This document shows, one piece after another, positions 738-27,221 of a stretch of DNA of 27,221 nucleotides; the stretch's first letter is position 1, and every line of letters begins with the position of its first letter. The DNA lies in assembly GCA_033816765.1 (NCBI GenBank), contig JAVSIV010000024.1, positions 1-27,221 on the forward strand, given 5' to 3'. This stretch comes from Nothopassalora personata (Eukaryota > Ascomycota > Dothideomycetes > Mycosphaerellales > Mycosphaerellaceae). The notes beneath the pieces were generated by a model. It ran no database searches. It was not told the origin of the DNA and saw only the letters and a program-made list of their open reading frames with translations. The translations under genes were made by a program, and so were the position numbers.

Positions 738-1678
738 CTTCGATAATTATATAGCTAGACTCGTAGCTAGACTTATAGCTATTACTTTAGAGTCTACCTA
801 ACGTTAACTAGCGTATAAAGGCACCGAGAAATAGGCTTATTATTAAGCTATCTACGAGGTAGCTAAGACCGAAAAAGTAGAGGGAAGTATAGACTCGTAG
901 TATATAGATAGGAGGTAGACTACTTAATATTATATTATTAAGTGTAAAATATAGCGACTAACTCGCTACCTAGTAGACGGCTAATAAATTTAATTAAGCA
1001 GCTAATAGTACCCTCTAATTACTAAATACAATCCTCCGCCGCGACTAAGTAAGTCGATATATTATTAGTAGGGCGAGTACTAGACTCGCTAGCCTTACTA
1101 ATCTTACTAGCCTCGCTAGCCTCGCTAGAAGTAGTTAAAACACCCTCGAAAGCCTTAAATAAACTATTACTAGACTTACTAGACTCGCTAGGCTCCTTAA
1201 CTAATTTACGAGAGTTATAGCGAGCCTTCGCGTAACGTTACGCTTATAATACGCGTAAGTCTTATTAGCATTAGTAGTAAAGACTATATAGTATATACTA
1301 GCTCTCTTATACGTATCGTAGTCCGTCTAAGCCGGCTTACCTATTAATATAAGTTAGTATATATAGTATAGCAAGTCTACTATAAGACATATACCCTCTT
1401 TAGTCTCTATAATACGGCTAGCCTAGTTAAACTTACGTAAATTATTCTTCGTAACCTTTATACTACCCTTATCTATCTTCTACGAGTCTCCTAGCTATTA
1501 TGCCTATATCGACTCGCTTACGTAGTAGAAATCGTTAGTACCGGCGGTACGAGGGCGTCGGTACATACTATAGGTTTATTAGTCTACCTACGTACGCCTA
1601 ACGAGTCGGAATCGTACTTACGCTATCGTAAGCTATAGTAATAACCGCGTTTATAAGGGTAAGCGCGGATTAGGTGTA

Positions 1679-1720
1679 CTATCGCTATTGCTATCGCTAT
1701 CGCTATTATTATTGTTATTC
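1679..1720. repeat. GATAGC-type short tandem repeat
   Basis: A run of imperfect CTATCG/CTATTG hexamers followed by ATT triplets, in the RIP-degraded tract. Mirrored at 26886-26927. Confidence 0.7.
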
Positions 1721-1845
1721 TAAGGCTAATATCGCTAAGTAAGTCGTCTATAGTTAGATTTATATATATTGATAAGTATAGAGTTAAAGAAATAGTAATA
1801 GCAGTAGAAGTTAATATACCCGCCGCTATAATATAACAATAGTAA

Positions 1846-1900
1846 GTAAGGTAAGCTCCTTAATACTTACTATCTACTATTATTAAGGAGCCTAACTTAC
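1846..1900. repeat. Inverted repeat (hairpin) at the edge of the RIP tract
   Basis: The left stem ends in GCTCCTTAATA near 1864 and the right stem begins TATTAAGGAGC near 1881. The stem is about 20 bp with two mismatches, around a loop of roughly 15 bases. It lies where the CA-depleted sequence gives way to normal sequence, so it could be a terminal structure of the decayed element. Confidence 0.6.
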
Positions 1901-2252
1901 CTACGTAGTAGGAGGAATAGGCCACCGCCGCAACTCGCTACGATTGTAGGCGACAATAGCGAGTCGCAGTAGTATTGCTATTATTAATATTATTGTTGAG
2001 GAAGAGCGAGTGCAGCGAGTGAGGATTTCGAATAAGCGTAATTGCCGGTTTTGTAAGCCTAGGCCACCGTCTGCGGAGCATTGCCGGAGAATTGCCTTTG
2101 GATTCGCTTGCTCTTCGAGCTGGTCGCCCTCATTCCATTCACGTCTTTGCTCAATCATTGTCTAAAGAATCACTGCCTCAGTCATAACGAATACTCCTCG
2201 CTCTCGCTATGCAGTTCGTCAGCTCCAACACCATCAAAGCGACGCGACCGAA

Positions 2253-2258
2253 ACGCGT
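2253..2258. promoter_or_regulatory. ACGCGT element upstream of the 2309 start
   Basis: The palindrome ACGCGT, the known core of the MluI cell-cycle box bound by MBF in fungi, lies 50 bp before the chosen ATG at 2309. A single six-base match is weak evidence, and a second ACGCGT occurs inside the gene near 2464. Use as a hint only. Mirrored at 26348-26353. Confidence 0.2.
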
Positions 2259-2308
2259 CAAAGACATTACTTGCGCCGGCTGACAGCACTTGTTCCACCA
2301 CCGCAAAG

Positions 2309-3625
2309 ATGCCACGAACACTTCCATGGCTTACGGAGCCTTCAGCAAAAAAAGCCGCACCACGCAAAGCACAGTCAGAACGCAAGCGCTCCTCCTCCCC
2401 AGGCGATCTGGTCAATTCGGATCTCGAACCGATAGGCAGCAGCAGTCCGCAGCGCAGATCCAGGACGCGTGATACCCATCGCGAACCGTCCAGCTCTCCT
2501 CCCACGTCGGTGAAAGTCGCTCCCACGGTCGAGTACATGCGCGAGGGCTTCACCATGGACGACAGGTACATGATGGTCGAGGACGAGTTCACAACCACCG
2601 CTCGACTCTTCTCTTTGCCGTTGCACCAAGACGAATACGAGCGAACTAGGCGTCGTGCGAAAGCTCGTGGTACAGATACTTTGAAGTTGATTGGGCATGG
2701 CACTGATGGGAATGCGGGGAGTAGGGCGCTGAGGTTGAGGATGGAGGCGGAGGAGAGGGCGAAGAAGAGGAAGGCTGTTGCTGCGGATGATAGTGATGAC
2801 GAGGAGGAAGAGTACATGGCGGATCCGCAGCTTGCTGGGTTGATGACAGCCAGTCAGAGCACGCCGAGGAAGAGCTTGAGGGGGTTTGCGAGTAACAGTC
2901 AGAGAACGCCGAGAATTGCGGGCGGGAGGACGAGGGATGTGGTAGGGGCGGAGAGGGTTTACAGGAGGGCGGACATCTCTGCAATTGAGGCAGACGTCGA
3001 GACGGAAGATGAGGACGAGGACGATCTCGATGTCTTGGCGCCCAAGACAAGGCCGACTGCGAGCGCATCTACGAAACACCGTGGCAAGGCCATCGAGGAG
3101 CGAACAACACCTGAGCCCGTCAAGAAGTCCGGCGTCTTCAAGCAGTTCACCAACTCAGTGCAGGCCGAGCGTGAGCCGAAGAGGAGTCAGAGGCCGAGAA
3201 CAAGATCGCGATCCCGAAGCTTTACACACCGCAACGATGACAAGCCCCCAGCGGTGCGCGAGCCGTGTCCACTTTCGATTGCCTCTCACAACGAGAACGA
3301 TACAGAACCCCAGCCGAAACCCATCAAGATGTCAAGGACAGCCGCCATCCTTGCAAAACGACGAGAAGCGGAAAAGAAAGCCAAAGAAGATGGCATCTCG
3401 CCGGAGAAGCAGATCAAGCAAGAGCTAAAGTCACAAGTCCGCACGAAAGAGGAGCTAGCTAGCCAGACTCAAGGCAGACAGATCAAGCGGGAGCCATGTC
3501 CGTCGCCTGTCCGACAAGCTTTGGCGTCCAAATCCATGGCTCAACGCAGAGCGGCGCGAGCAAAGCAACAAGCAGAAGAGAAGCAAAGGAGCAAGATCGA
3601 TGACATTCCAACTTTCTTGTATTGA
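2309..3625 (+). CDS. Unrecognised basic/acidic low-complexity protein, probably nuclear (438 aa), left copy
   Basis: I do not recognise the family. The frame is open from an ATG at 2081, but I chose the ATG at 2309 (context CAAAGATGCC). The 76 upstream residues look like translated leader, and the region from MPRTLPWL onward has the composition of a real protein. In 438-residue numbering: residues 71-118 form the one folded-looking block (EYMREGF, DDRYMMVEDEF, then LHQDEYERTRRRAK). Acidic runs follow at about 160-170 and 229-240, an Arg/Ser stretch at about 295-304, and charged helices at about 344-359 and near the C-terminus. Basic clusters such as KKRK could be nuclear signals, and IKQE and IKRE fit the SUMO consensus. 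It ends 118 bp from the convergent dehydrogenase gene. There is no intron and no RIP damage. It is probably a conserved ascomycete nuclear protein of unknown role. Confidence 0.75.
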   Translation: MPRTLPWLTEPSAKKAAPRKAQSERKRSSSPGDLVNSDLEPIGSSSPQRRSRTRDTHREPSSSPPTSVKVAPTVEYMREGFTMDDRYMMVEDEFTTTARLFSLPLHQDEYERTRRRAKARGTDTLKLIGHGTDGNAGSRALRLRMEAEERAKKRKAVAADDSDDEEEEYMADPQLAGLMTASQSTPRKSLRGFASNSQRTPRIAGGRTRDVVGAERVYRRADISAIEADVETEDEDEDDLDVLAPKTRPTASASTKHRGKAIEERTTPEPVKKSGVFKQFTNSVQAEREPKRSQRPRTRSRSRSFTHRNDDKPPAVREPCPLSIASHNENDTEPQPKPIKMSRTAAILAKRREAEKKAKEDGISPEKQIKQELKSQVRTKEELASQTQGRQIKREPCPSPVRQALASKSMAQRRAARAKQQAEEKQRSKIDDIPTFLY

Positions 3626-3743
3626 GAGGATTTTGGATAAGGTACTGTCTGTTCTGGATGGAATATGCTAAAGATACTCCCACTGCCAAAGCTCTGACGA
3701 AATGCATTCCTTCCAATTTCCAGCATCCATCTCAATCTCCCAT

Positions 3744-4487
3744 CTACCACTTCTCCAACATAGGCCTAATGTCAATCTCATTCGTAAAACACCGTCGACT
3801 CTGCGTATGCAAATTCCAATAACTCTCCGCAATATCGTCCGCCCCAATCTTCGCCTCCGGTGGCGAGTCCTTCAACCACTCCTTCGTACGTGGAATGTCA
3901 ATAATTCCATCAATCACCGCATGTGCGACGTGGACGCCCTTGGAAGCAAACTCTTTCGCGATGGAGGTGGAGAGGGCTCGTAAAGCGAATTTAGAGGATG
4001 CGAACGAGCTCATCAGAGCGTTGGCTTTGACGGACGCGGTGGCGCCGGTGAAGATGAGGGTTGGTGGGTACTGCGCCCCCTTGTCCTCTGCATGCTTCAA
4101 CAGTAATGGCAGTGCATTCTGCGAGAAGATAAATGCGCCTTTTACGGAGACTTCATGACCCTGTTGGAATTCTTCCACACTCTGTTCCAGGATCCCTTTC
4201 CGGACGAAGTTGCCAGAGGCATTGAAGATTGCTGCCGCTGCTGGGGCATCGCCGTATTCTTGTCTTATTTTGGAGAAGGCGTTCTTTACGGACTCCTCGG
4301 AGGAGACGTCGGTGCTGATTCCGATGGCTTTTCCGCCATTGCTGTTGATCTCTTGCGCGAGAGATTCGTAGTTCTCGGCGGAGCGGGCAAGAAGCACGAC
4401 TGGGTAGGATTTGGAGAAGCGCCGGGCTACTGCTGCGCCGGTTCCAGGACCGACGCCCGCGACTATGGCGATGGCTTTGGTGGTCAT
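3744..4487 (-). CDS. Short-chain dehydrogenase/reductase (247 aa), left copy
   Basis: A classical-size SDR, probably a soluble NAD(P)-dependent oxidoreductase; the substrate cannot be read from sequence. In 247-residue numbering: the Rossmann glycine motif is G11-V-G-P-G-T-G17, Asp60 follows the third strand, NAS at 89-91 replaces the usual NAG, and Ser152 is in FTGATAS. The YxxxK site reads F162-A-S-S-K166, so the usual catalytic tyrosine is phenylalanine. I recall the same FASxKFALRAL pattern, followed by GVHVAHAVIDG, in a known SDR subgroup, so this is probably a subgroup trait, not damage. The frame opens at 4694, but I chose the ATG at 4487 (ACAACCATGACC). The 69 residues upstream are Ser/Thr-rich and come from a CT-rich stretch typical of fungal leaders. 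A mitochondrial presequence is a weaker alternative. It lies downstream of, and co-oriented with, the secreted-protein gene. Confidence 0.88.
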   Translation of the reverse strand: MTTKAIAIVAGVGPGTGAAVARRFSKSYPVVLLARSAENYESLAQEINSNGGKAIGISTDVSSEESVKNAFSKIRQEYGDAPAAAAIFNASGNFVRKGILEQSVEEFQQGHEVSVKGAFIFSQNALPLLLKHAEDKGAQYPPTLIFTGATASVKANALMSSFASSKFALRALSTSIAKEFASKGVHVAHAVIDGIIDIPRTKEWLKDSPPEAKIGADDIAESYWNLHTQSRRCFTNEIDIRPMLEKW

Positions 4488-4818
4488 GGTTGTTGTTACG
4501 GGTGTGAGGTGGAGGGAGAGTTGGGTTATGCGGGGATGAGTGGTGGAAGACAGGTTGATGGTGGGTGTGGTGGAGATATTGGGGTGGTATGAGGGAGAGG
4601 TTGAGTACGAGGTGACTTGCCTATAAGAATGTAAAGCTGTGGTGGAGCTCGATGAGATGAGGTCACTGCTACCCCGGTTGAAGGATCGGACCATTAGTCT
4701 TTCCGTGACGGACAGGTTTCGATGTTGTTCACACGGTCGAGGGCGACGACGCTGAGTTCAATTGCTTTGTGCTTTGCTACCCGTATCTATAACGTTCTCA
4801 CGCAACGCCACACAGCAA
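4488..4818. other. Intergenic gap between dehydrogenase and secreted-protein genes
   Basis: This 331-bp gap holds the 3' end of the secreted-protein gene and the promoter/leader of the dehydrogenase gene, both on the minus strand. On that strand the part next to the dehydrogenase ATG is strongly CT-rich, a common feature of fungal transcription starts. I see no separate gene. Confidence 0.6.
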
Positions 4819-5472
4819 CTATGAAGATGAGGCACCCTGGCCGCCCGAACCATTCGCGAGCCTTCCACCAGGGCAGTACGTGCTAATCTGGAACGTGTCC
4901 ACAGCCCAAGCAATGCTGTTGAACTCGAACAGGGACTTGTAAATCTGGCCGTTTCTATCTAAGTACAGCTTTTGGATGCCACTGACCGGGTATCGCCCAC
5001 TGCCAACGACAGTCAATTCCCACGACCAGATAATGACCGTGCCTGCGCAAAGGATTTCCTTCGTCTTGAGGCCATCGTATGGCGGTGGCTTGAAAGTGTT
5101 GGCTCGCTGGATGTTGCTGATCCACTCTGTGCGGTTATTGGACTCTGGTGTGCCGTCGAGCTGCGAGAGGAGATTAGCACCGAGTCGATCCGTCTTGGGG
5201 AAGCAGCGTACAGGTTCACCGAGTAGCGAGCGAACAGACTCGCTGAAGTCTTGGTAGTTGGGTGCAATGATCTGTTGGGCGAGCTGGTATGGCGTCTTGC
5301 CGTTGTATGAGTCGTTGCGGAGGATTGATGCATATTTGTCGATGATCACGCCGGCGTTCTGGCAGGCTTGCTGATCACGACCACCGCCGTGGTCGACGCC
5401 ACCGTACCTGGGAGGTGAGAGTGATGTTGCTGCAGCGAGAGCGCCGAGGGAGAGCGTGAGGAGGAACTTCAT
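4819..5472 (-). CDS. Secreted NTF2-like domain protein (217 aa), left copy
   Basis: The N-terminus MKFLLTLSLGALAAATS is a good signal peptide, with likely cleavage around residues 15-18. The mature part resembles the small secreted NTF2-like proteins common in ascomycetes: a helix with CQNAGVIIDKYASIL at about 37-51, then the YQLAQQIIAPNYQDFSESV segment (62-80), then strands ending in the conserved-looking SLFEFNSIAWAVD (180-192). Cysteines 37, 90, 142 and 200 could form two disulphides. Asn53 (NDS), Asn113 (NRT) and Asn207 (NGS) are N-glycosylation sequons. The Gly/Ser tail after 201 looks disordered. NTF2-like folds bind small ligands or act as enzymes; no active site is evident. A TATA-like box lies about 90 bp upstream. 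A transposon sits 255 bp upstream of the ATG. Confidence 0.85.
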   Translation of the reverse strand: MKFLLTLSLGALAAATSLSPPRYGGVDHGGGRDQQACQNAGVIIDKYASILRNDSYNGKTPYQLAQQIIAPNYQDFSESVRSLLGEPVRCFPKTDRLGANLLSQLDGTPESNNRTEWISNIQRANTFKPPPYDGLKTKEILCAGTVIIWSWELTVVGSGRYPVSGIQKLYLDRNGQIYKSLFEFNSIAWAVDTFQISTYCPGGRLANGSGGQGASSS

Positions 5473-5560
5473 GGTATGGATCTTATGATCTCAGCTGCGG
5501 ACGAAATTGGTCGCGGAGAGATGATATCGACAACATGAAGGCGGAAGAATGGCTGCACCT

Positions 5561-5570
5561 CTTATATTCC
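5561..5570 (-). promoter_or_regulatory. TATA-like box of the secreted-protein gene, left
   Basis: On the minus strand this reads GGAATATAAG, about 90 bp before the ATG at 5472, a plausible TATA distance for a fungal gene with a short leader. It lies inside the short interval between the gene and the transposon. Confidence 0.4.
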
Positions 5571-5727
5571 ATCTTCTGGGCGGCAGCTCGTGCCATGTGA
5601 GGACACTGCACCGCATCATGGCAACAAAATTTCGTCGCCATCTCAAAGCTTCGAGGCTGACTTGACGAGCTTGAATTAATAGAGTTGCTACATGAAACTC
5701 GGAAGCGGATGAAGCGCAATTTAACTA

Positions 5728-5753
5728 TTCGAGTGAGCAAAAGGGTCGGGACT
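5728..5753 (+). repeat. Transposon terminal inverted repeat (5' end), left copy
   Basis: Begins TTCGAGTGAGC after TA. It matches the complement of 10066-10091 (which reads TTCAAGCGAGC) with two transition differences. Confidence 0.88.
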
Positions 5754-5932
5754 GCGGGGATTCGGACCTACCCAGTTAGTTAGCAAATCGATCTTGAGCC
5801 TCCCATACCTTATTATCGTTGTATCTCTTCATTTTGAAGCCTTAGTACCACCAGTTTTGCCAGAAATAAGGTGTTGTTGCTCGCTCTATCCAGCGCACTC
5901 GTTGTCTACGTGTCCGGAGCCTTCGCCGTCGT

Positions 5933-6057
5933 TGCGCGACCCCCTATAGCGCCATTATCCGTCCAAGATCAGAACCTTATTTAATAGTGTCTCGAAGACG
6001 ATTAGGCTAGACCTGCAGTAGTTCAGTTGTTGTTAGCAGATAACAGGGGGTCGCGCA
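5933..6057. repeat. 13-bp perfect inverted repeat inside the transposon
   Basis: TGCGCGACCCCCT at 5933-5945 recurs as its exact complement at 6045-6057, 99 bases apart. It overlaps the start of the transposase reading frame. It could be chance in GC-rich leftovers, a sub-terminal transposase site, or the trace of a small nested element. Mirrored at 22549-22673. Confidence 0.5.
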
Positions 6058-6971
6058 GTGCTATCTAGTTGCGAATCAAGCGCTTTAAAGAGACTAGAAC
6101 AGTATAGCTAGCTAAGGGCGGTAGACCACGGTTAATCGAACCATATATACGCGACTGGTTACTAGATCTAGTCGTAGAAAAGAGCACATATTAGGCCGAG
6201 GAATTGGTGTACTTCTTACACGCTGAATTCGGTGTTCTCGTGTCGAAATAGACTATAAGTCGACTACTAGGCAGTAAGGACTTTACGAAGAAGAAGATCT
6301 TACGCATTACGGAGTAGCGTAACCCTATGGTGAGGGCGATGTTCGAAGGCCTGTTACAGCAACATAAGGAGGACTAATTGGTGTATATCGATAAGACATA
6401 CTATAGTAATAAGCTAGCCTATCGGACACGTAGTTAGAGTCCTCGAGGCATGCCGGTATACGATCCTTAACACCTTTACTACAGCGAGCGATTTACCGTG
6501 TTGCCGGTATATAGTGTTAAGGGATATCTAGCGAATCCGCTAATTAAGCCTAGTAGCGTAAAGAAGGTAGATTTCATCGAATAGTTAATGCTATACGTGC
6601 TACCGTAGTGTAGCCGCTACCCTACGCCACGGTTAGTCATTGTTATAGACAACTGCGTAACATACGATCGTGTCGATATCGAAGCTATATGTTAAGAGGC
6701 TAGCGTAAGGATACTGTTTCTACCGCCGTACTTACCGGATTATAATCTAATTAAGAAGACGTTTCGCTTACTAAAAAGGTGGATTAGGCAGCATGCTTAT
6801 ATAATGCCGGAGTATAGTGAACATAACTAGTAGGCTAAGTTCAAGGTGTTTCTTAAGGCGGCCTATAAAGACTAGTCGCACGGCATCGACTATAGCGCGA
6901 TCTTTCGCAGTTGTTACGTTCTTAAGGAGGGCTATACGGTCGATCCGGCGCTTTTAACGATAGATTTGTAA
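5946..6971 (+). pseudogene. RIP-inactivated DD34E (Tc1-like) transposase, left copy
   Basis: One frame runs without frameshift to TAA at 6969-6971, interrupted by more than a dozen stops that are all TAG or TAA. Recognisable parts: a helix-turn-helix-like region with the GGRPRLIEPYIRDWLLD segment (near 6118-6170), VYID at 6381-6392 (first catalytic Asp codon 6390), VIDNC with the second Asp at 6648, and LPPYLPDYN before the third catalytic position at 6753. The spacing from second to third catalytic residue is 34 residues, as in Tc1 elements. The third residue, expected to be Glu, is Lys (AAG), a G-to-A change of the kind RIP makes. The residue after the first Asp is also Lys where Glu is usual. 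The start is not certain. Confidence 0.88.
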
Positions 6972-7798
6972 TGAATAAGGTAGAAGTTAATACGGTAAAT
7001 CTAGCGTAAGTTGTATTAAGTTAGTTAGAGTTGTAGTAGCCGCGATATTAACCTTACTATCGCTAGTACTTTATCTAAAGCTACAGTTACGGCTTGCCCC
7101 GGCTAGCGCGCTTTACGGCGATCCGCTAGGCTTCGCGCAACACACGAAGGTGTTGTAACGACATATGTATTCATTTTAAACGCGCAATCATCTTAAATAT
7201 GTCGTCGGTAAATTATAAAAAAACCGCTTGTTTATATCTACTATAGTTATGTTAATCTCGAATCGTCTTATAAAAAGTTATGCCCTAAAGCCGTACCTTA
7301 GTCGTAGTTCGAGCTAGAGTTGAAGTTACAAGCTTACTAGCTAGGGTCTAAAACAATAGATTTTAAGAACTCGACAACTATAGTAGCTACGAACGTAATT
7401 ATTTTTTTATTTTATACGCACTACACTTAATCGATGCGTGAAACGTATTTCATAATAAAGAGTTGTGTTGTGCGGTGCTAGTGTAGCTACGAAGATGCAA
7501 AAAGCCGGCTTCGCGCTAGTGTCGGGCTTACCCGTTAGGGTCTAGATAGGTCTTAGCTCCCTAGTTAATGCCTCGAGGCTACGCTTATAACACTATAGCT
7601 AGCCTACCCTATGAGAATAACATAACTATAACCACTGGAGAAATATACATTGTATGCTCACTATATATTTCGATACCGCTAAAGAAGCTCGTATTGTCCG
7701 TTTGTTTATATGATTTTTTTCTATGTCGTAGTAATGCGAGAAACATCTTAAATCTAGCAAGCCGTAACGCTACCTCATGACCCTACAATAGCGTACCC
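6972..7798. other. Non-coding middle of the transposon, left copy
   Basis: AT-rich, RIP-marked stretch between the convergent 3' ends of the transposase and the second frame. It includes runs of A and T near 7215-7225 and 7401-7412. The copied fragment found in the loop starts within it, at 7461. I see no gene, only short chance frames. Confidence 0.6.
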
Positions 7799-9976
7799 TT
7801 AACTTACAAATAGGCCGTCGTTACTGCTTATTAACTAAGCGATATCCCTAGCACCTTTAGTAGCGATATATCGCGGCAACTGCTTATAGATTACGTCTCT
7901 TATACCCTTCTGTTTAATAAGCTTTACTAACTTACTATCCGTCTCTTTCTTTAGTATTAAGAGGGTGTAGAACTCCTTAAATAGCTTCTCCTTTATAGTA
8001 AGGATTGCCGGAGCTATATTACTGTTACGTTTAGCTATCTAGTTATAGAAAGAGCGCACTTCTTAGCGTGTTTCTATGTTGATGCCCTAAGGCGGCGGAG
8101 ACGATTTATCGTATCGTTATTAAGTTAGATAAGGAGTCAGATAGTTAGTTAGATAAGCTAGTAACGTTACTAAGGGTAATTAAGGTAGCTAGCTACTATA
8201 ATATTACGGTATCATAGGCGGATACTAATAGCTATAATATAGTAGTACCGGAGGTACTGCGGACGGCGTAGATGCTACAATAGGTTCACTACCTACTATC
8301 GACGGTGTTAGCGTGTCGTTAGGTGAGTTATTCTTACTTCTCCTTAGTATAGAAGTCTTATACATGCCTCTAACTTTAACTGCAATATTAGAAGGCATTA
8401 TAGATAGTAGAACCTTAGCTACGCCGTCCTTACTAGATTCACGTGCTACCTTAATGCGTCTATACTATTCTTGCATGTGACCGCCTTTAATAGCATAGTG
8501 CTTACCTTCCTTAATAAGATAGCCTATTAGACCAGTGCCCTTAGACTTCTTATTATTGTACTACTTGTCTTCGTAGCGATGCATAACTAGGAGCTTCTAA
8601 TAGTCCTTACGTGTTATTAGTGTCTTGTCGAACGCGTTAATAATAGCTATGTTAGCCTTCGTAGTTTGCTTCTTATTTAGCTGCTTCGTAGTAGGCTCCG
8701 GTTATAAGGACTCTTCGAATGTCTCTTACGGTAACAGCGGTAGCGACGAGCCTAGTACAGTAGGTACGTTAGTCTATTTCTTAGTAATATAGAGTGTTAT
8801 AGAACGCTTTATGTTCTACTATAACTTAAGGAAGGGTTCTACATTAATCGTGAAGTTAATAGACTTAGTAAGTTTAAACTAGTTAGTATCTACTACGTAG
8901 CCGTGCTTCTTAGCCTTAAGTAACGCTAGCCTTAATAACATGAAGTATTACATGCCCTTAGAGTCTACGTATACCTTCGCTTAATGCTCTAACTTCCTTA
9001 TAAGCCTAGTAATAGCACTAATATCGCTATAGTAGATGCTACTAATAGGGGGAAGTTCCTTCTTATTAAACACAACTGTTAACTTAACACGGACTAGATC
9101 TAATTACGGCGTTAATGGAGCTAGCGTTGCTAAGGGTCGTAGCGTTACTAAAGGCCGAGTAGCGATTAAGGGTGCGGGTGTTACCGTAATAGACTTAGCT
9201 CTAGTTAATGAAATAATAGGTTCTTTCGGCGGCGATGGTAGACGCATTTCTTAACCGTTTAACTTGCTTCTTAATAGGGCGACATACTGCGATTGTGTAG
9301 ATGATACCTATGTTTTTCTAGACTTCTTAGGCTTCTTAGTTAATAGTTCCTTACTAGGTAGAGCTAGCCTCTTTTCCGCTGTTAGAGGGGTCGGTTATTA
9401 AGGCTTAATCGACGTAGTAACAACTAGCTGCTTACTAAGCTTCAACTTCACCGGCTTCGCGCTACTAGCCACGGGTGTCGCGTATGCCTCAGAGCCTGAT
9501 TTAGCCGTGTTTTTCGCTAGTTCTAATACACCCTGCCTAAGCTAAGTCTCTGCTAGGGCAGCCATTCTTCGAGTATGCATTCTACGCTAATAATCCTTAT
9601 CTAAATCGTCGCTCGTGTCGTCCTTAAGCCAGCGCAACTGGTTACGTTGTAATGCGTCTTCTACAGGATCGTAGGACTGCCTAGGAGTAGGTAGTTCTTA
9701 ATTAGACTCTAATAGCTCTTCCTCGTACTTAAACTATGTCTCCGGAGGCAGCGGTGGCAGCGAGAAGTCGCACAACTGTGTGTTCGTGAAGCCCTGAGTC
9801 TCGGCGATAGTGCGTGTTGCGTAGCCAGGAGGCAATGGAGGTAGTGAGGAACGGGTAAGATCGTGTATCTTCGAGGTATGCGCCGGGGGTGTTAGTGGGC
9901 TGAAATCTGGACCTTTTGGACTACTTTTTCTTTCTGTGGCCTTAGACAACGTAGTACAATCGGAATATGTAGTCAT
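7799..9976 (-). pseudogene. Second transposon ORF, about 725 codons, RIP-inactivated, function unknown, left copy
   Basis: From the ATG at 9976 a single minus-strand frame stays in register to TAA at 7799-7801 with no indel, broken only by TAG/TAA codons. The first 80 codons (9734-9976) are open and un-RIPed: a Ser/Pro-rich start with two LPPLPP motifs. Then come an Arg/Leu/Glu-rich segment, Pro/Ala/Thr-rich and lysine-rich linkers (KKPKKSRK, a possible nuclear signal), and a part with YNNKKSKGTGLIGYLIKEG. The last 90 codons, from about 8,070 down, look like a charged helical domain (IKEKLFKEFYTLLILKKE, then IYKQLPRYIATKG). I recognise no family. It could be an accessory DNA-binding or nuclease-helper protein, or an unrelated passenger gene caught between the ends. 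Confidence 0.7.
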
Positions 9977-10065
9977 TTGTGTGTGTAGAGGTCGTTATTG
10001 TGGTGCGCTATGTGTAGGAAGTTTCTATGTAATTACGCTGAGACATGGGTTACCCTACATGGAGG

Positions 10066-10091
10066 AGTCCCGACCCTTTTGCTCGCTTGAA
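10066..10091 (-). repeat. Transposon terminal inverted repeat (3' end), left copy
   Basis: Complement of 5728-5753 with two transitions, followed by TA at 10092-10093. Confidence 0.88.
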
Positions 10092-10093
10092 TA

Positions 10094-17916: not shown

Positions 17917-18000
17917 GGCAAGCTAATCCTTAATGGAGCTTCGATAACGATTCAGGTTTCAAATTGGATAGGCAGAGGAGCACCCGGGCTTATAACCTAT

Positions 18001-18146
18001 TGTAGATAGGTATTTAACGAGTATAAGCTTCTAGATTGAAACGATAGGGTAGATTAGTAACCCTTATGAATTGCCACAAGGTGTGAGACTATCTAGCTAC
18101 AGAAAACAGTGTGATATAGTGTGTGTGTGCCAAGTCCTGACTAACA
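18001..18146 (-). repeat. Putative Copia 5' LTR (146 bp), right copy
   Basis: Mirror of 10460-10605, with the Copia body continuing leftwards from it. Confidence 0.55.
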
Positions 18147-18512
18147 TAGACCTTGGTCACCTGATTCACAACAAATGGCAGACCGTAATCAGCACTCTGG
18201 ACTCCGTGGCAAACTTGCTGTCGAACACCGGACTTTAGTGCCAACGGCCGCCGTTGAAACTATTCTAAAATACCAAATTTGTGATCCACAGATGAAAGGT
18301 TAGGATTTCATGATCATTGTCGATGGATTTGGTGATGGGACAGTGCAGCAGAGGGTTGCGCGATCCGCTAAAACTCGTTATCATCAATGAAGCCGCCAGC
18401 GTCTCTTACAGCCTGGCGCTGTGAAGCCAATTAGTCCAACTCTTGGCATTGAGCTTGTCGTTGAGCTTCTTCGGCGTGCTGTCACTCTCGGCGCTTCATG
18501 CTGCTCGGTCCC
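18147..18512. other. Un-RIPed spacer between Copia LTR and transposon, right
   Basis: Mirror of 10094-10459; ordinary composition, no gene seen. Confidence 0.6.
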
Positions 18513-18514
18513 TA

Positions 18515-18540
18515 TTCAAGCGAGCAAAAGGGTCGGGACT
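18515..18540 (+). repeat. Transposon terminal inverted repeat, right copy (second-ORF end)
   Basis: Starts TTCAAGCGAGC after TA; mirror of 10066-10091. Confidence 0.88.
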
Positions 18541-18629
18541 CCTCCATGTAGGGTAACCCATGTCTCAGCGTAATTACATAGAAACTTCCTACACATAGCG
18601 CACCACAATAACGACCTCTACACACACAA

Positions 18630-20807
18630 ATGACTACATATTCCGATTGTACTACGTTGTCTAAGGCCACAGAAAGAAAAAGTAGTCCAAAAGGTCCAGA
18701 TTTCAGCCCACTAACACCCCCGGCGCATACCTCGAAGATACACGATCTTACCCGTTCCTCACTACCTCCATTGCCTCCTGGCTACGCAACACGCACTATC
18801 GCCGAGACTCAGGGCTTCACGAACACACAGTTGTGCGACTTCTCGCTGCCACCGCTGCCTCCGGAGACATAGTTTAAGTACGAGGAAGAGCTATTAGAGT
18901 CTAATTAAGAACTACCTACTCCTAGGCAGTCCTACGATCCTGTAGAAGACGCATTACAACGTAACCAGTTGCGCTGGCTTAAGGACGACACGAGCGACGA
19001 TTTAGATAAGGATTATTAGCGTAGAATGCATACTCGAAGAATGGCTGCCCTAGCAGAGACTTAGCTTAGGCAGGGTGTATTAGAACTAGCGAAAAACACG
19101 GCTAAATCAGGCTCTGAGGCATACGCGACACCCGTGGCTAGTAGCGCGAAGCCGGTGAAGTTGAAGCTTAGTAAGCAGCTAGTTGTTACTACGTCGATTA
19201 AGCCTTAATAACCGACCCCTCTAACAGCGGAAAAGAGGCTAGCTCTACCTAGTAAGGAACTATTAACTAAGAAGCCTAAGAAGTCTAGAAAAACATAGGT
19301 ATCATCTACACAATCGCAGTATGTCGCCCTATTAAGAAGCAAGTTAAACGGTTAAGAAATGCGTCTACCATCGCCGCCGAAAGAACCTATTATTTCATTA
19401 ACTAGAGCTAAGTCTATTACGGTAACACCCGCACCCTTAATCGCTACTCGGCCTTTAGTAACGCTACGACCCTTAGCAACGCTAGCTCCATTAACGCCGT
19501 AATTAGATCTAGTCCGTGTTAAGTTAACAGTTGTGTTTAATAAGAAGGAACTTCCCCCTATTAGTAGCATCTACTATAGCGATATTAGTGCTATTACTAG
19601 GCTTATAAGGAAGTTAGAGCATTAAGCGAAGGTATACGTAGACTCTAAGGGCATGTAATACTTCATGTTATTAAGGCTAGCGTTACTTAAGGCTAAGAAG
19701 CACGGCTACGTAGTAGATACTAACTAGTTTAAACTTACTAAGTCTATTAACTTCACGATTAATGTAGAACCCTTCCTTAAGTTATAGTAGAACATAAAGC
19801 GTTCTATAACACTCTATATTACTAAGAAATAGACTAACGTACCTACTGTACTAGGCTCGTCGCTACCGCTGTTACCGTAAGAGACATTCGAAGAGTCCTT
19901 ATAACCGGAGCCTACTACGAAGCAGCTAAATAAGAAGCAAACTACGAAGGCTAACATAGCTATTATTAACGCGTTCGACAAGACACTAATAACACGTAAG
20001 GACTATTAGAAGCTCCTAGTTATGCATCGCTACGAAGACAAGTAGTACAATAATAAGAAGTCTAAGGGCACTGGTCTAATAGGCTATCTTATTAAGGAAG
20101 GTAAGCACTATGCTATTAAAGGCGGTCACATGCAAGAATAGTATAGACGCATTAAGGTAGCACGTGAATCTAGTAAGGACGGCGTAGCTAAGGTTCTACT
20201 ATCTATAATGCCTTCTAATATTGCAGTTAAAGTTAGAGGCATGTATAAGACTTCTATACTAAGGAGAAGTAAGAATAACTCACCTAACGACACGCTAACA
20301 CCGTCGATAGTAGGTAGTGAACCTATTGTAGCATCTACGCCGTCCGCAGTACCTCCGGTACTACTATATTATAGCTATTAGTATCCGCCTATGATACCGT
20401 AATATTATAGTAGCTAGCTACCTTAATTACCCTTAGTAACGTTACTAGCTTATCTAACTAACTATCTGACTCCTTATCTAACTTAATAACGATACGATAA
20501 ATCGTCTCCGCCGCCTTAGGGCATCAACATAGAAACACGCTAAGAAGTGCGCTCTTTCTATAACTAGATAGCTAAACGTAACAGTAATATAGCTCCGGCA
20601 ATCCTTACTATAAAGGAGAAGCTATTTAAGGAGTTCTACACCCTCTTAATACTAAAGAAAGAGACGGATAGTAAGTTAGTAAAGCTTATTAAACAGAAGG
20701 GTATAAGAGACGTAATCTATAAGCAGTTGCCGCGATATATCGCTACTAAAGGTGCTAGGGATATCGCTTAGTTAATAAGCAGTAACGACGGCCTATTTGT
20801 AAGTTAA
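18630..20807 (+). pseudogene. Second transposon ORF, about 725 codons, RIP-inactivated, right copy
   Basis: Mirror of 7799-9976. The frame from ATG 18630 stays in register to TAA at 20805-20807, with the intact first 80 codons followed by repeated TAG/TAA interruptions. If the last TAA was itself a RIP product, the frame would end at TGA 20829-20831. The function is not recognised. Confidence 0.7.
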
Positions 20808-21634
20808 GGGTACGCTATTGTAGGGTCATGAGGTAGCGTTACGGCTTGCTAGATTTAAGATGTTTCTCGCATTACTACGACATAGAAAAAAATCATATAA
20901 ACAAACGGACAATACGAGCTTCTTTAGCGGTATCGAAATATATAGTGAGCATACAATGTATATTTCTCCAGTGGTTATAGTTATGTTATTCTCATAGGGT
21001 AGGCTAGCTATAGTGTTATAAGCGTAGCCTCGAGGCATTAACTAGGGAGCTAAGACCTATCTAGACCCTAACGGGTAAGCCCGACACTAGCGCGAAGCCG
21101 GCTTTTTGCATCTTCGTAGCTACACTAGCACCGCACAACACAACTCTTTATTATGAAATACGTTTCACGCATCGATTAAGTGTAGTGCGTATAAAATAAA
21201 AAAATAATTACGTTCGTAGCTACTATAGTTGTCGAGTTCTTAAAATCTATTGTTTTAGACCCTAGCTAGTAAGCTTGTAACTTCAACTCTAGCTCGAACT
21301 ACGACTAAGGTACGGCTTTAGGGCATAACTTTTTATAAGACGATTCGAGATTAACATAACTATAGTAGATATAAACAAGCGGTTTTTTTATAATTTACCG
21401 ACGACATATTTAAGATGATTGCGCGTTTAAAATGAATACATATGTCGTTACAACACCTTCGTGTGTTGCGCGAAGCCTAGCGGATCGCCGTAAAGCGCGC
21501 TAGCCGGGGCAAGCCGTAACTGTAGCTTTAGATAAAGTACTAGCGATAGTAAGGTTAATATCGCGGCTACTACAACTCTAACTAACTTAATACAACTTAC
21601 GCTAGATTTACCGTATTAACTTCTACCTTATTCA
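20808..21634. other. Non-coding middle of the transposon, right copy
   Basis: Mirror of 6972-7798; no gene seen. Confidence 0.6.
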
Positions 21635-22660
21635 TTACAAATCTATCGTTAAAAGCGCCGGATCGACCGTATAGCCCTCCTTAAGAACGTAACAACTGCG
21701 AAAGATCGCGCTATAGTCGATGCCGTGCGACTAGTCTTTATAGGCCGCCTTAAGAAACACCTTGAACTTAGCCTACTAGTTATGTTCACTATACTCCGGC
21801 ATTATATAAGCATGCTGCCTAATCCACCTTTTTAGTAAGCGAAACGTCTTCTTAATTAGATTATAATCCGGTAAGTACGGCGGTAGAAACAGTATCCTTA
21901 CGCTAGCCTCTTAACATATAGCTTCGATATCGACACGATCGTATGTTACGCAGTTGTCTATAACAATGACTAACCGTGGCGTAGGGTAGCGGCTACACTA
22001 CGGTAGCACGTATAGCATTAACTATTCGATGAAATCTACCTTCTTTACGCTACTAGGCTTAATTAGCGGATTCGCTAGATATCCCTTAACACTATATACC
22101 GGCAACACGGTAAATCGCTCGCTGTAGTAAAGGTGTTAAGGATCGTATACCGGCATGCCTCGAGGACTCTAACTACGTGTCCGATAGGCTAGCTTATTAC
22201 TATAGTATGTCTTATCGATATACACCAATTAGTCCTCCTTATGTTGCTGTAACAGGCCTTCGAACATCGCCCTCACCATAGGGTTACGCTACTCCGTAAT
22301 GCGTAAGATCTTCTTCTTCGTAAAGTCCTTACTGCCTAGTAGTCGACTTATAGTCTATTTCGACACGAGAACACCGAATTCAGCGTGTAAGAAGTACACC
22401 AATTCCTCGGCCTAATATGTGCTCTTTTCTACGACTAGATCTAGTAACCAGTCGCGTATATATGGTTCGATTAACCGTGGTCTACCGCCCTTAGCTAGCT
22501 ATACTGTTCTAGTCTCTTTAAAGCGCTTGATTCGCAACTAGATAGCACTGCGCGACCCCCTGTTATCTGCTAACAACAACTGAACTACTGCAGGTCTAGC
22601 CTAATCGTCTTCGAGACACTATTAAATAAGGTTCTGATCTTGGACGGATAATGGCGCTAT
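21635..22660 (-). pseudogene. RIP-inactivated DD34E (Tc1-like) transposase, right copy
   Basis: Mirror of 5946-6971 with the same stops and the same Glu-to-Lys change at the third catalytic position. The sharing of all decay marks shows that RIP preceded the inverted duplication. Confidence 0.88.
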
Positions 22661-22673
22661 AGGGGGTCGCGCA
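22549..22673. repeat. 13-bp perfect inverted repeat inside the transposon, right copy
   Basis: Mirror of 5933-6057: arms at 22549-22561 and 22661-22673. Confidence 0.5.
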
Positions 22674-22852
22674 ACGACGGCGAAGGCTCCGGACACGTAG
22701 ACAACGAGTGCGCTGGATAGAGCGAGCAACAACACCTTATTTCTGGCAAAACTGGTGGTACTAAGGCTTCAAAATGAAGAGATACAACGATAATAAGGTA
22801 TGGGAGGCTCAAGATCGATTTGCTAACTAACTGGGTAGGTCCGAATCCCCGC

Positions 22853-22878
22853 AGTCCCGACCCTTTTGCTCACTCGAA
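22853..22878 (-). repeat. Transposon terminal inverted repeat, right copy (transposase end)
   Basis: Mirror of 5728-5753, followed by TA. Confidence 0.88.
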
Positions 22879-23035
22879 TAGTTAAATTGCGCTTCATCCG
22901 CTTCCGAGTTTCATGTAGCAACTCTATTAATTCAAGCTCGTCAAGTCAGCCTCGAAGCTTTGAGATGGCGACGAAATTTTGTTGCCATGATGCGGTGCAG
23001 TGTCCTCACATGGCACGAGCTGCCGCCCAGAAGAT

Positions 23036-23045
23036 GGAATATAAG
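23036..23045 (+). promoter_or_regulatory. TATA-like box of the secreted-protein gene, right
   Basis: GGAATATAAG about 90 bp before the ATG at 23134; mirror of 5561-5570. Confidence 0.4.
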
Positions 23046-23133
23046 AGGTGCAGCCATTCTTCCGCCTTCATGTTGTCGATATCATCTCTCCGCGACCAAT
23101 TTCGTCCGCAGCTGAGATCATAAGATCCATACC

Positions 23134-23787
23134 ATGAAGTTCCTCCTCACGCTCTCCCTCGGCGCTCTCGCTGCAGCAACATCACTCTCACCTCCCAGGT
23201 ACGGTGGCGTCGACCACGGCGGTGGTCGTGATCAGCAAGCCTGCCAGAACGCCGGCGTGATCATCGACAAATATGCATCAATCCTCCGCAACGACTCATA
23301 CAACGGCAAGACGCCATACCAGCTCGCCCAACAGATCATTGCACCCAACTACCAAGACTTCAGCGAGTCTGTTCGCTCGCTACTCGGTGAACCTGTACGC
23401 TGCTTCCCCAAGACGGATCGACTCGGTGCTAATCTCCTCTCGCAGCTCGACGGCACACCAGAGTCCAATAACCGCACAGAGTGGATCAGCAACATCCAGC
23501 GAGCCAACACTTTCAAGCCACCGCCATACGATGGCCTCAAGACGAAGGAAATCCTTTGCGCAGGCACGGTCATTATCTGGTCGTGGGAATTGACTGTCGT
23601 TGGCAGTGGGCGATACCCGGTCAGTGGCATCCAAAAGCTGTACTTAGATAGAAACGGCCAGATTTACAAGTCCCTGTTCGAGTTCAACAGCATTGCTTGG
23701 GCTGTGGACACGTTCCAGATTAGCACGTACTGCCCTGGTGGAAGGCTCGCGAATGGTTCGGGCGGCCAGGGTGCCTCATCTTCATAG
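23134..23787 (+). CDS. Secreted NTF2-like domain protein (217 aa), right copy
   Basis: Identical to 4819-5472: signal peptide, NTF2-like core, four cysteines and three sequons. The start ATG at 23134 is the first in the frame and directly yields the signal peptide. Its promoter, like the left copy's, is limited to the 255 bp between the ATG and the transposon end at 22878. Confidence 0.85.
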   Translation: MKFLLTLSLGALAAATSLSPPRYGGVDHGGGRDQQACQNAGVIIDKYASILRNDSYNGKTPYQLAQQIIAPNYQDFSESVRSLLGEPVRCFPKTDRLGANLLSQLDGTPESNNRTEWISNIQRANTFKPPPYDGLKTKEILCAGTVIIWSWELTVVGSGRYPVSGIQKLYLDRNGQIYKSLFEFNSIAWAVDTFQISTYCPGGRLANGSGGQGASSS

Positions 23788-24118
23788 TTGCTGTGTGGCG
23801 TTGCGTGAGAACGTTATAGATACGGGTAGCAAAGCACAAAGCAATTGAACTCAGCGTCGTCGCCCTCGACCGTGTGAACAACATCGAAACCTGTCCGTCA
23901 CGGAAAGACTAATGGTCCGATCCTTCAACCGGGGTAGCAGTGACCTCATCTCATCGAGCTCCACCACAGCTTTACATTCTTATAGGCAAGTCACCTCGTA
24001 CTCAACCTCTCCCTCATACCACCCCAATATCTCCACCACACCCACCATCAACCTGTCTTCCACCACTCATCCCCGCATAACCCAACTCTCCCTCCACCTC
24101 ACACCCGTAACAACAACC

Positions 24119-24862
24119 ATGACCACCAAAGCCATCGCCATAGTCGCGGGCGTCGGTCCTGGAACCGGCGCAGCAGTAGCCCGGCGCTTCTCCAAATCCT
24201 ACCCAGTCGTGCTTCTTGCCCGCTCCGCCGAGAACTACGAATCTCTCGCGCAAGAGATCAACAGCAATGGCGGAAAAGCCATCGGAATCAGCACCGACGT
24301 CTCCTCCGAGGAGTCCGTAAAGAACGCCTTCTCCAAAATAAGACAAGAATACGGCGATGCCCCAGCAGCGGCAGCAATCTTCAATGCCTCTGGCAACTTC
24401 GTCCGGAAAGGGATCCTGGAACAGAGTGTGGAAGAATTCCAACAGGGTCATGAAGTCTCCGTAAAAGGCGCATTTATCTTCTCGCAGAATGCACTGCCAT
24501 TACTGTTGAAGCATGCAGAGGACAAGGGGGCGCAGTACCCACCAACCCTCATCTTCACCGGCGCCACCGCGTCCGTCAAAGCCAACGCTCTGATGAGCTC
24601 GTTCGCATCCTCTAAATTCGCTTTACGAGCCCTCTCCACCTCCATCGCGAAAGAGTTTGCTTCCAAGGGCGTCCACGTCGCACATGCGGTGATTGATGGA
24701 ATTATTGACATTCCACGTACGAAGGAGTGGTTGAAGGACTCGCCACCGGAGGCGAAGATTGGGGCGGACGATATTGCGGAGAGTTATTGGAATTTGCATA
24801 CGCAGAGTCGACGGTGTTTTACGAATGAGATTGACATTAGGCCTATGTTGGAGAAGTGGTAG
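24119..24862 (+). CDS. Short-chain dehydrogenase/reductase (247 aa), right copy
   Basis: Translation identical to 3744-4487, including the G-x-G-x-G-x-G cofactor motif, Ser152 and the F162-A-S-S-K166 variant of the active site. The ATG at 24119 is preferred to the upstream ATG at 23912 because it follows a pyrimidine-rich leader and gives the usual SDR length. It converges on the unrecognised gene ending at 24981, leaving 118 bp between the stop codons. The 331-bp gap after the secreted-protein gene (23788-24118) must hold that gene's terminator and this gene's promoter. Confidence 0.88.
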   Translation: MTTKAIAIVAGVGPGTGAAVARRFSKSYPVVLLARSAENYESLAQEINSNGGKAIGISTDVSSEESVKNAFSKIRQEYGDAPAAAAIFNASGNFVRKGILEQSVEEFQQGHEVSVKGAFIFSQNALPLLLKHAEDKGAQYPPTLIFTGATASVKANALMSSFASSKFALRALSTSIAKEFASKGVHVAHAVIDGIIDIPRTKEWLKDSPPEAKIGADDIAESYWNLHTQSRRCFTNEIDIRPMLEKW

Positions 24863-24980
24863 ATGGGAGATTGAGATGGATGCTGGAAATTGGAAGGAAT
24901 GCATTTCGTCAGAGCTTTGGCAGTGGGAGTATCTTTAGCATATTCCATCCAGAACAGACAGTACCTTATCCAAAATCCTC

Positions 24981-26297
24981 TCAATACAAGAAAGTTGGAA
25001 TGTCATCGATCTTGCTCCTTTGCTTCTCTTCTGCTTGTTGCTTTGCTCGCGCCGCTCTGCGTTGAGCCATGGATTTGGACGCCAAAGCTTGTCGGACAGG
25101 CGACGGACATGGCTCCCGCTTGATCTGTCTGCCTTGAGTCTGGCTAGCTAGCTCCTCTTTCGTGCGGACTTGTGACTTTAGCTCTTGCTTGATCTGCTTC
25201 TCCGGCGAGATGCCATCTTCTTTGGCTTTCTTTTCCGCTTCTCGTCGTTTTGCAAGGATGGCGGCTGTCCTTGACATCTTGATGGGTTTCGGCTGGGGTT
25301 CTGTATCGTTCTCGTTGTGAGAGGCAATCGAAAGTGGACACGGCTCGCGCACCGCTGGGGGCTTGTCATCGTTGCGGTGTGTAAAGCTTCGGGATCGCGA
25401 TCTTGTTCTCGGCCTCTGACTCCTCTTCGGCTCACGCTCGGCCTGCACTGAGTTGGTGAACTGCTTGAAGACGCCGGACTTCTTGACGGGCTCAGGTGTT
25501 GTTCGCTCCTCGATGGCCTTGCCACGGTGTTTCGTAGATGCGCTCGCAGTCGGCCTTGTCTTGGGCGCCAAGACATCGAGATCGTCCTCGTCCTCATCTT
25601 CCGTCTCGACGTCTGCCTCAATTGCAGAGATGTCCGCCCTCCTGTAAACCCTCTCCGCCCCTACCACATCCCTCGTCCTCCCGCCCGCAATTCTCGGCGT
25701 TCTCTGACTGTTACTCGCAAACCCCCTCAAGCTCTTCCTCGGCGTGCTCTGACTGGCTGTCATCAACCCAGCAAGCTGCGGATCCGCCATGTACTCTTCC
25801 TCCTCGTCATCACTATCATCCGCAGCAACAGCCTTCCTCTTCTTCGCCCTCTCCTCCGCCTCCATCCTCAACCTCAGCGCCCTACTCCCCGCATTCCCAT
25901 CAGTGCCATGCCCAATCAACTTCAAAGTATCTGTACCACGAGCTTTCGCACGACGCCTAGTTCGCTCGTATTCGTCTTGGTGCAACGGCAAAGAGAAGAG
26001 TCGAGCGGTGGTTGTGAACTCGTCCTCGACCATCATGTACCTGTCGTCCATGGTGAAGCCCTCGCGCATGTACTCGACCGTGGGAGCGACTTTCACCGAC
26101 GTGGGAGGAGAGCTGGACGGTTCGCGATGGGTATCACGCGTCCTGGATCTGCGCTGCGGACTGCTGCTGCCTATCGGTTCGAGATCCGAATTGACCAGAT
26201 CGCCTGGGGAGGAGGAGCGCTTGCGTTCTGACTGTGCTTTGCGTGGTGCGGCTTTTTTTGCTGAAGGCTCCGTAAGCCATGGAAGTGTTCGTGGCAT
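24981..26297 (-). CDS. Unrecognised basic/acidic low-complexity protein (438 aa), right copy
   Basis: Identical translation to the left copy at 2309-3625, in mirrored position and orientation. All the features listed there (central EYMREGF block, acidic runs, basic clusters, charged C-terminal helices) are present. The longer frame would begin at 26525, but the ATG at 26297 is preferred for the same reason. The absence of any stop, frameshift or C-to-T style damage in either duplicate of this 1.3-kb gene shows that RIP has not acted on the pair. Confidence 0.75.
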   Translation of the reverse strand: MPRTLPWLTEPSAKKAAPRKAQSERKRSSSPGDLVNSDLEPIGSSSPQRRSRTRDTHREPSSSPPTSVKVAPTVEYMREGFTMDDRYMMVEDEFTTTARLFSLPLHQDEYERTRRRAKARGTDTLKLIGHGTDGNAGSRALRLRMEAEERAKKRKAVAADDSDDEEEEYMADPQLAGLMTASQSTPRKSLRGFASNSQRTPRIAGGRTRDVVGAERVYRRADISAIEADVETEDEDEDDLDVLAPKTRPTASASTKHRGKAIEERTTPEPVKKSGVFKQFTNSVQAEREPKRSQRPRTRSRSRSFTHRNDDKPPAVREPCPLSIASHNENDTEPQPKPIKMSRTAAILAKRREAEKKAKEDGISPEKQIKQELKSQVRTKEELASQTQGRQIKREPCPSPVRQALASKSMAQRRAARAKQQAEEKQRSKIDDIPTFLY

Positions 26298-26347
26298 CTT
26301 TGCGGTGGTGGAACAAGTGCTGTCAGCCGGCGCAAGTAATGTCTTTG

Positions 26348-26353
26348 ACGCGT
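26348..26353. promoter_or_regulatory. ACGCGT element, right copy
   Basis: Mirror of 2253-2258, 50 bp upstream of the chosen ATG at 26297. A single hexamer, so only a hint of an MBF-type site. Confidence 0.2.
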
Positions 26354-26705
26354 TTCGGTCGCGTCGCTTTGATGGTGTTGGAGCTGACGAACTGCATAGC
26401 GAGAGCGAGGAGTATTCGTTATGACTGAGGCAGTGATTCTTTAGACAATGATTGAGCAAAGACGTGAATGGAATGAGGGCGACCAGCTCGAAGAGCAAGC
26501 GAATCCAAAGGCAATTCTCCGGCAATGCTCCGCAGACGGTGGCCTAGGCTTACAAAACCGGCAATTACGCTTATTCGAAATCCTCACTCGCTGCACTCGC
26601 TCTTCCTCAACAATAATATTAATAATAGCAATACTACTGCGACTCGCTATTGTCGCCTACAATCGTAGCGAGTTGCGGCGGTGGCCTATTCCTCCTACTA
26701 CGTAG

Positions 26706-26760
26706 GTAAGTTAGGCTCCTTAATAATAGTAGATAGTAAGTATTAAGGAGCTTACCTTAC
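26706..26760. repeat. Inverted repeat (hairpin), right copy
   Basis: Mirror of 1846-1900, at the same boundary between RIP-depleted and normal sequence. Confidence 0.6.
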
Positions 26761-26885
26761 TTACTATTGTTATATTATAGCGGCGGGTATATTAACTTCT
26801 ACTGCTATTACTATTTCTTTAACTCTATACTTATCAATATATATAAATCTAACTATAGACGACTTACTTAGCGATATTAGCCTTA

Positions 26886-26927
26886 GAATAACAATAATAA
26901 TAGCGATAGCGATAGCAATAGCGATAG
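26886..26927. repeat. GATAGC-type short tandem repeat, right copy
   Basis: Reverse complement of 1679-1720: AAT/AAC triplets followed by GATAGC/AATAGC hexamers. Confidence 0.7.
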
Positions 26928-27221
26928 TACACCTAATCCGCGCTTACCCTTATAAACGCGGTTATTACTATAGCTTACGATAGCGTAAGTACGATTCCGA
27001 CTCGTTAGGCGTACGTAGGTAGACTAATAAACCTATAGTATGTACCGACGCCCTCGTACCGCCGGTACTAACGATTTCTACTACGTAAGCGAGTCGATAT
27101 AGGCATAATAGCTAGGAGACTCGTAGAAGATAGATAAGGGTAGTATAAAGGTTACGAAGAATAATTTACGTAAGTTTAACTAGGCTAGCCGTATTATAGA
27201 GACTAAAGAGGGTATATGTCT

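Follow-up and report, generated by a model that had tools for sequence, protein, structure and literature searches.

The palindromic contig JAVSIV010000024.1 of Nothopassalora personata is one piece of a multi-copy array of direct and inverted 17.6-kb units

Contig JAVSIV010000024.1 of the ascomycete Nothopassalora personata (Mycosphaerellaceae; assembly GCA_033816765.1, 54,548,678 bases in 40 contigs) is 27,221 bp long and is analysed in its entirety as the window of this report. The window, designated C19, belongs to a multi-copy array whose 17,565-bp units meet at direct and inverted joints, and its giant palindrome is one back-to-back joint of that array. The unit, its copies, the joints that were read and the native flanks are directly observed. 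The array probably originated by a recent segmental amplification in place, with template-switch-like inversions and a subsequent reshuffling by recombination. The preliminary description had offered three interpretations of the palindrome, namely the centre of a fold-back chromosome arm, an isochromosome-like or dicentric-derived structure, and an amplification intermediate. As a whole that interpretation is partly supported, with the last possibility borne out by C19 being a piece of amplified array.

If the unit is numbered from the first base of the window, and + and - give the direction in which it is read, the window consists of unit +1-12030, +13447-14311, +7461-9363 and -13810-1385, without a single substitution or indel. 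The first block (window 1-12030, + strand) includes the left arm at 1385-12030 and a stretch, 1-1384, that is unpaired within the contig. The left arm is the exact reverse complement of the right arm at 16576-27221 (- strand, unit 12030 descending to 1385, stopping at the contig end) over 10,646 bp at 100% identity, with position x pairing with 28606-x. Joint J2 follows at 12030-12031 (+), passing from unit 12030 to 13447 with a 1,416-bp deletion and 0 bp of overlap. The inner arms, at 12031-12394 (+, unit 13447-13810) and 14796-15159 (-, unit 13810 descending to 13447), carry the same 364 bp in both senses and match exactly, with x pairing with 27190-x. The register shifts between outer and inner arms because the 1,416 bp (unit 12031-13446) are missing from the left arm only and are retained in the right arm, in descending order, at 15160-16575 (-). 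The loop begins with 499 bp of unit 13811-14309 (window 12395-12893, +). A templated insertion of 1,903 bp makes up the rest (12894-14796, +); it reproduces 7461-9363, in unit and window numbering alike, at 100% identity and overlaps its neighbours by 2 bp at the left joint, J3a, and by 1 bp at the right joint, J3b.

The palindrome, both pairing offsets and the identical translations of mirrored reading frames are thus as first described. The palindrome had also been said to continue past the window; the contig stops at position 27221, and a continuation of the right arm is not visible. The supposed nested transposon in the loop turned out to be a slice of the unit, both ends of which fall within an older repeat (about 5725-10093). 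A whole-element insertion in the loop was ruled out, as the ends of the loop copy match no known repeat ends.

The unit repeats head-to-tail in C33 and C34. At a shift of 17,565 bp, C33 agrees with itself at 19,506 of 19,507 bases (37,072 of its 40,744 bases having been read) and C34 at 2,885 of 2,885. Twelve stretches resolve into unit blocks: C19, C20, C21, C30-C34, C39, C40 and two parts of C9. Contigs C40, C39, C34, C32 and C19 were read whole and the remaining array contigs in part, with the rest placed from search hits. Array contigs make up 10 of the 27 contigs C14-C40, the other 17 being known only by their lengths and 60-base starts. The blocks, mapped partly from search hits, sum to 359,232 bp or 20.45 unit equivalents, and to 16.8 units when C30, C32 and C34 are left out. 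Unit 9364-10432 is present in 26 complete copies and one partial copy (33 of 33 candidates scored), each 100% identical after rounding with three of the 26 scoring slightly lower, and all copies sit on C9, C19-21, C30-34, C39 and C40. The block map holds 13 complete copies of a gene for a 438-amino-acid (438-aa) protein, 15 of the region of a short-chain dehydrogenase/reductase (SDR) gene (unit 3747-4572) and 17 of a secreted-protein gene, and its coverage reaches a peak of 29 inside 7461-9363.

The chromosomal site of the array is found on C9. On the reverse strand of that scaffold, outside sequence (flank X, from C9:20948 upward) leads into unit 16283, passes 17565/1 and the deletion 3059|5821, and then enters a second unit. 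Flank X thereby enters 20.9 kb of array, more than one unit, crossing the joint 16282|16283. The interval C9:541075-553348 corresponds to unit 4007-16282 and is followed by outside sequence from C9:553349 onward (flank Y). The borders C9:20947/20948 and 553348/553349 adjoin unit 16283 and unit 16282, respectively. Genome copies of both border repeats run uninterrupted across the border points, which indicates that both borders are ancestral and only the joint 16282|16283 is new. A TTAGGG run ends at C9:540974; exactly 100 N come next, and the sequence resumes at unit 4007. The likeliest reading of this interval (C9:540975-541074) is a join made during scaffolding that left the first 541 kb of C9 in backward orientation, and by flipping that piece we infer an order that runs from the telomere through 520 kb to flank X, the array and finally flank Y. 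The telomere and the 100 N at that point led us to discard two other readings, a 520-kb inversion and a second genomic home at C9:541 kb. Telomere repeats followed by 100 N stand within three scaffolds (C9:540975-541074, C1:556407-556506 and C2:2540211-2540310), which suggests that pieces were joined via telomeres during scaffolding.

The basic tandem joint, 16282|16283, lies between two different repeat elements and by eye shares zero bases. The joints read further comprise five inverted joints, two deletions and the one templated insertion. J1 (-5933|+3160, 0 bp of overlap) occurs in C40 and C31, and in C30 by search hits. J2 (12030|13447) and J3 (14311|7461-9363|-13810, divided into J3a and J3b) are both present in C19 and C40, and the three steps J2, J3a and J3b are packed within 2.8 kb. 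J4 (+11388|-15727), with an overlap of 3 bp exact or 7 bp with one mismatch, is found in C39, C32 and C31, and J5 (-8082|+4113, 1 bp) in C32 and C31. J6 is the deletion 3059|5821 (0 bp) in C9, and in C20 by search hits, and J7 (-5588|+12475, 2 bp) occurs once, on the single contig C21. Two further inverted joints on C31 fall where the consensus is poor and are placed approximately, at about +11906|-15296 and about -8819|+3260. Across the block map the tandem joint occurs 14 times and inverted joints 13 times (two of them approximate). Contig C32, and C31 at about 50.3-57.2 kb, show many single-base indels or poor identity, like thinly covered contigs; J4 and J5 in C32 and C31 nonetheless match other contigs exactly.

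Four of the six composite joints (J1, J2 with J3, J4 and J6) stand in more than one context. J1 is followed by J4 in C31 and by J2-J3 in C40, while J4 is followed by J5 in C31 and C32 and not in C39. J6 is preceded by flank X in C9 and, according to search hits, by a unit in C20, and J2-J3 is preceded by J1 in C40 and by an ordinary unit in C19. Joints in differing contexts imply either that rearranged pieces were copied to new neighbourhoods or that the assembler repeatedly misjoined identical copies.

Loops at the inverted joints measure 0.5-6.9 kb. Inside the unit there are no long inverted repeats: the longest exact inverted match is 19 bp, and the longest imperfect one is 64 bp at 78%, formed by position 1842-1904 with itself. 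Inverted repeats of 7 bp lie near 5 of 10 breakpoints, compared with 39% of random sites. Microhomology and short inverted repeats were considered as drivers of the rearrangements, and neither is above chance. The idea that unit 8819-11388 is a common core kept by selection was likewise rejected, as the three closed inverted segments overlap at chance (P = 0.54 for a shared point); the four frames tested in unit 8819-11388 matched no Pfam family at E 1.

When 148,720 bases were compared, leaving out C34 (the unit reference) and the indel-rich C32 (4 substitutions, 35 indels), the copies differed by 5 substitutions and 6 indel entries. Of the five substitutions, one falls within the overlap at J4, one is at the ragged end of C39, and three are C:G to T:A changes. 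A G>A change at unit 9281 is common to C33:20488 and C32:20414, a hint of shared descent within the array. Repeat-induced point mutation (RIP) is a premeiotic process directed at repeats, and tandem duplications are reportedly hit harder than dispersed ones according to the account in PMC10823647. The RIP composite index is -0.3 to -1.2 in the gene island (unit 2251-6000) and -0.2 in the scoring window 9751-10500; in all remaining scoring windows (up to 750 bp) it ranges from +0.75 to +2.3. A large unmutated array suggests that the amplification postdates the last RIP round, and the near identity of the copies, together with a RIP-free gene island amid mostly RIP-marked repeats, points to a recent and mitotic origin.

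The in-place amplification that we favour agrees with the near-identical head-to-tail copies and with the presence of native flanks on both sides, whose linkage through the array we infer. In a first step, a tandem duplication at the native site would have produced the blunt joint 16282|16283, and this product is observed. A replication fork or repair synthesis might then have made serial jumps by switching template several times. At the palindrome, copying would have run forward to 12030, skipped 1,416 bp, taken in 13447-14311, back-copied 7461-9363, turned at 13810 and proceeded backward, and paired switches would have left the forward-inverted-forward pattern of J4-J5. Replication template switching best accounts for such serial jumps, with its hallmark, a templated insertion and serial switches inside one joint, being present; end joining of broken pieces also fits. 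In a third step, homologous recombination among identical copies may have multiplied the rearranged units and reshuffled them, as suggested by the four joints that appear in different neighbourhoods. A further and more tentative possibility is that the locus acts as an active gene accordion, duplicating and flipping in clonal growth, with about 20 or more copies of mixed orientation that are younger than the last RIP round and add to the dose of both the conserved gene pair and the gene for the secreted protein.

Several points weigh against this account or parts of it. At nine joints the overlaps total 9 bp where chance would give 6.3 (P = 0.21), which leaves microhomology-driven switching as no more than a possibility, and end joining of fragments fits the same joints. 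As the closed inverted segments overlap at chance, no selected core is singled out. J5 has a single context across its two contigs, C31 and C32, and J8 and J9 fall in poor consensus. The block order of C30 lies inside that of C40, that of C32 inside C31 and that of C34 inside C33, and these contigs are possibly redundant; true copy number and the far right arm of the palindrome depend on the assembler’s product. The order of flank, array and flank is pieced together from two array-ended pieces, the array lacking an end-to-end assembly. Lastly, inactive RIP in this strain would void the dating, and an unmutated family of long terminal repeats suggests that RIP may be inactive at present. This family is represented in the unit by a solo long terminal repeat at about 15530-15721 (64% GC, with TCCAA on each side by eye). 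Outside the array, 23 copies that are 99-100% identical are listed among the 40 of 149 candidates scored, and seven pairs of copies lie about 7.2 kb apart, like element ends (for example, C3:1585185-1592595 and C1:6665193-6672603). The family is young and apparently untouched by RIP.

With regard to alternative explanations, the array could be partly extrachromosomal, with a 17,565-bp circle replicating, recombining and re-integrating. The unit does close on itself, and ten array contigs are without chromosomal flank in the block map, but flank X on C9 passes directly into over one unit's length of array, which makes at least some of the array chromosomal, and we regard a circle as improbable. 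There is also little probability that the contig was assembled from fold-back or chimeric long reads or from whole-genome-amplification chimeras. Artificial and chimeric palindromes in long reads are on record, as reported in PMC12870357 and PMC6218980, and perfect arms, a contig end within the right arm and the mere 1,132 bp of right arm in C40 would suit such an origin. The arms are, however, asymmetric, with the 1,416-bp deletion in one of them, and the loop carries a templated insertion. The three-step joint recurs in C40 after a different upstream joint, and the differing contexts of four of the six composite joints likewise speak for real rearrangements. Moreover, the ten array contigs all consist of the unit of one locus, whereas chimeras from amplification would be scattered across the genome (a comparison in which the 17 other small contigs figure by length and 60-base start only). 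It is unlikely that the palindrome is a simple artefact of fold-back reads.

A similarly low probability is assigned to a breakage-fusion-bridge cycle or isochromosome, in which a broken end fused to its sister, re-broke and left a fold-back arm. Kilobase loops at the inverted joints, a count of 13 inverted against 14 tandem occurrences and a copy-number peak that lies within the unit are compatible with such cycles, for which Candida albicans provides a precedent with dicentric intermediates, as described in PMC7371428. Against this, the unit is without a long inverted repeat and no loss of distal sequence was seen, the telomere lying about 520 kb from flank X (with the intervening 520 kb mostly unread) and flank Y being kept. 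Retention of both native flanks, with a telomere on the flank X piece, leaves unsupported the fold-back arm, isochromosome or dicentric-derived structure proposed in the preliminary description, and these readings are further countered by the five distinct inverted joints and two deletions that share one array. Neither an isochromosome nor classical breakage-fusion-bridge is needed. Alternative transposition, or duplication of the stretch as cargo of a mobile element, is the least credible of the explanations and very improbable: both unit ends lie within repeat elements, and one side of J4 (unit 15724-15727) lies just beyond the solo long terminal repeat, 3-6 bp past its end, but this is the exception among 17 breakpoints, 16 of which are at least 37 bp from the repeat edges known at present (some edges being unmapped), the two sides of the basic joint lie within two different repeats, both uninterrupted in the flanks, no unit-sized block is present elsewhere among the scored candidates, and the 438-aa and SDR genes are numbered consecutively in three other Dothideomycetes, as an ordinary chromosomal pair.

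The in-place amplification can be compared with known systems. Rearrangements of the duplication-inverted triplication-duplication type (DUP-TRP/INV-DUP), attributed to microhomology-mediated break-induced replication, have a forward-inverted-forward order with a second switch back and a templated insertion. The order of J4 then J5 and the templated insertion resemble this type, but in N. personata they form part of a long tandem array, and microhomology does not exceed the chance level. In the industrial strains of Penicillium chrysogenum detailed in PMC7312703, the penicillin cluster is amplified to 5-14 copies in units of about 57-106 kb with a conserved TTTACA joint, and one strain is reported there with one inverted unit. 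As far as that account goes, the two cases share a native gene-bearing region, an interstitial head-to-tail amplification and a filamentous ascomycete host, but the N. personata unit is 17.6 kb, and its joints include several with inversions, deletions or templated insertions. In the 40 bp flanking 16282|16283 on each side, TTTACA and its complement are both absent. Inverted triplications of yeast SUL1, explained by the origin-dependent inverted-repeat amplification (ODIRA) model, have joints at short interrupted inverted repeats according to PMC4689423. They are likewise interstitial, contain inverted units and retain the distal chromosome, whereas the N. personata loops extend over kilobases and short inverted repeats near the breakpoints are close to their random frequency. 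In complex copy-number variants of C. albicans, the inverted repeats are native and long, with 3-4 kb in the case illustrated, and a loss of telomeric fragments is proposed, as set out in PMC7371428. These variants too are fungal, high-copy, stepped and inverted, but neither long inverted repeats nor telomeric loss are seen in N. personata. The Penicillium, ODIRA and Candida systems each match part of the array and each fail a defining feature that was tested, and the array is a new and unusually readable case of gene amplification.

Collectively, these observations indicate that a large, recent, tandem and inverted amplification can exist in a fungus with RIP-scarred repeats, and that it surfaces in an assembly chiefly as unplaced contigs and palindromes. 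The joints archive successive copying errors, making mitotic amplification in filamentous fungi directly testable at this locus. Array contigs may be dismissed as artefacts, and the possibility that scaffolds are joined through telomeres calls for similar caution.

Other features of the window were surveyed as well. The older repeat at window/unit 5725-10093 (approximate) has relatives of its ends at 83-85% identity at C2:2336448-2341160 and C5:673097-691191; only its two ends have detected relatives, and it is probably one older low-copy element that spans the slice reused in the loop. The window contains no tRNA, an Rfam scan of it was empty, and a search of a plasmid collection gave no match. 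A family search of the genome (39 of 1541 candidates scored) did not find 5.8S rRNA, and ribosomal DNA may be absent from the assembly.

Three genes were recognized in the unit, each mirrored in the right arm. The 217-aa protein (4819-5472, -; mirrored at 23134-23787, +) has a signal-peptide-like start by eye and no Pfam family at E 0.01, and its sole match is an NTF2-like protein of Teratosphaeria nubilosa (50% identity over 75% of its length). The 438-aa protein (2309-3625, +; mirrored at 24981-26297, -), also without a Pfam family at E 0.01, is 67% identical to Fulvia fulva CLAFUW4_12450 and 60% identical to a protein of Dothistroma septosporum; these two nearest named species belong to the Mycosphaerellaceae. 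The 247-aa SDR (3744-4487, -; mirrored at 24119-24862, +) belongs to PF00106 (2.1e-27), and its best match is a protein at 92% identity. Homologues of the 438-aa protein and the SDR have adjoining locus numbers in Vermiconidia calcicola (012129, 012128) and Meristemomyces frigidus (003907, 003908), and the same pairing in Cladosporium fusiforme (006815, 006816) completes the three other Dothideomycetes in which the two genes look like an old pair of chromosomal neighbours.

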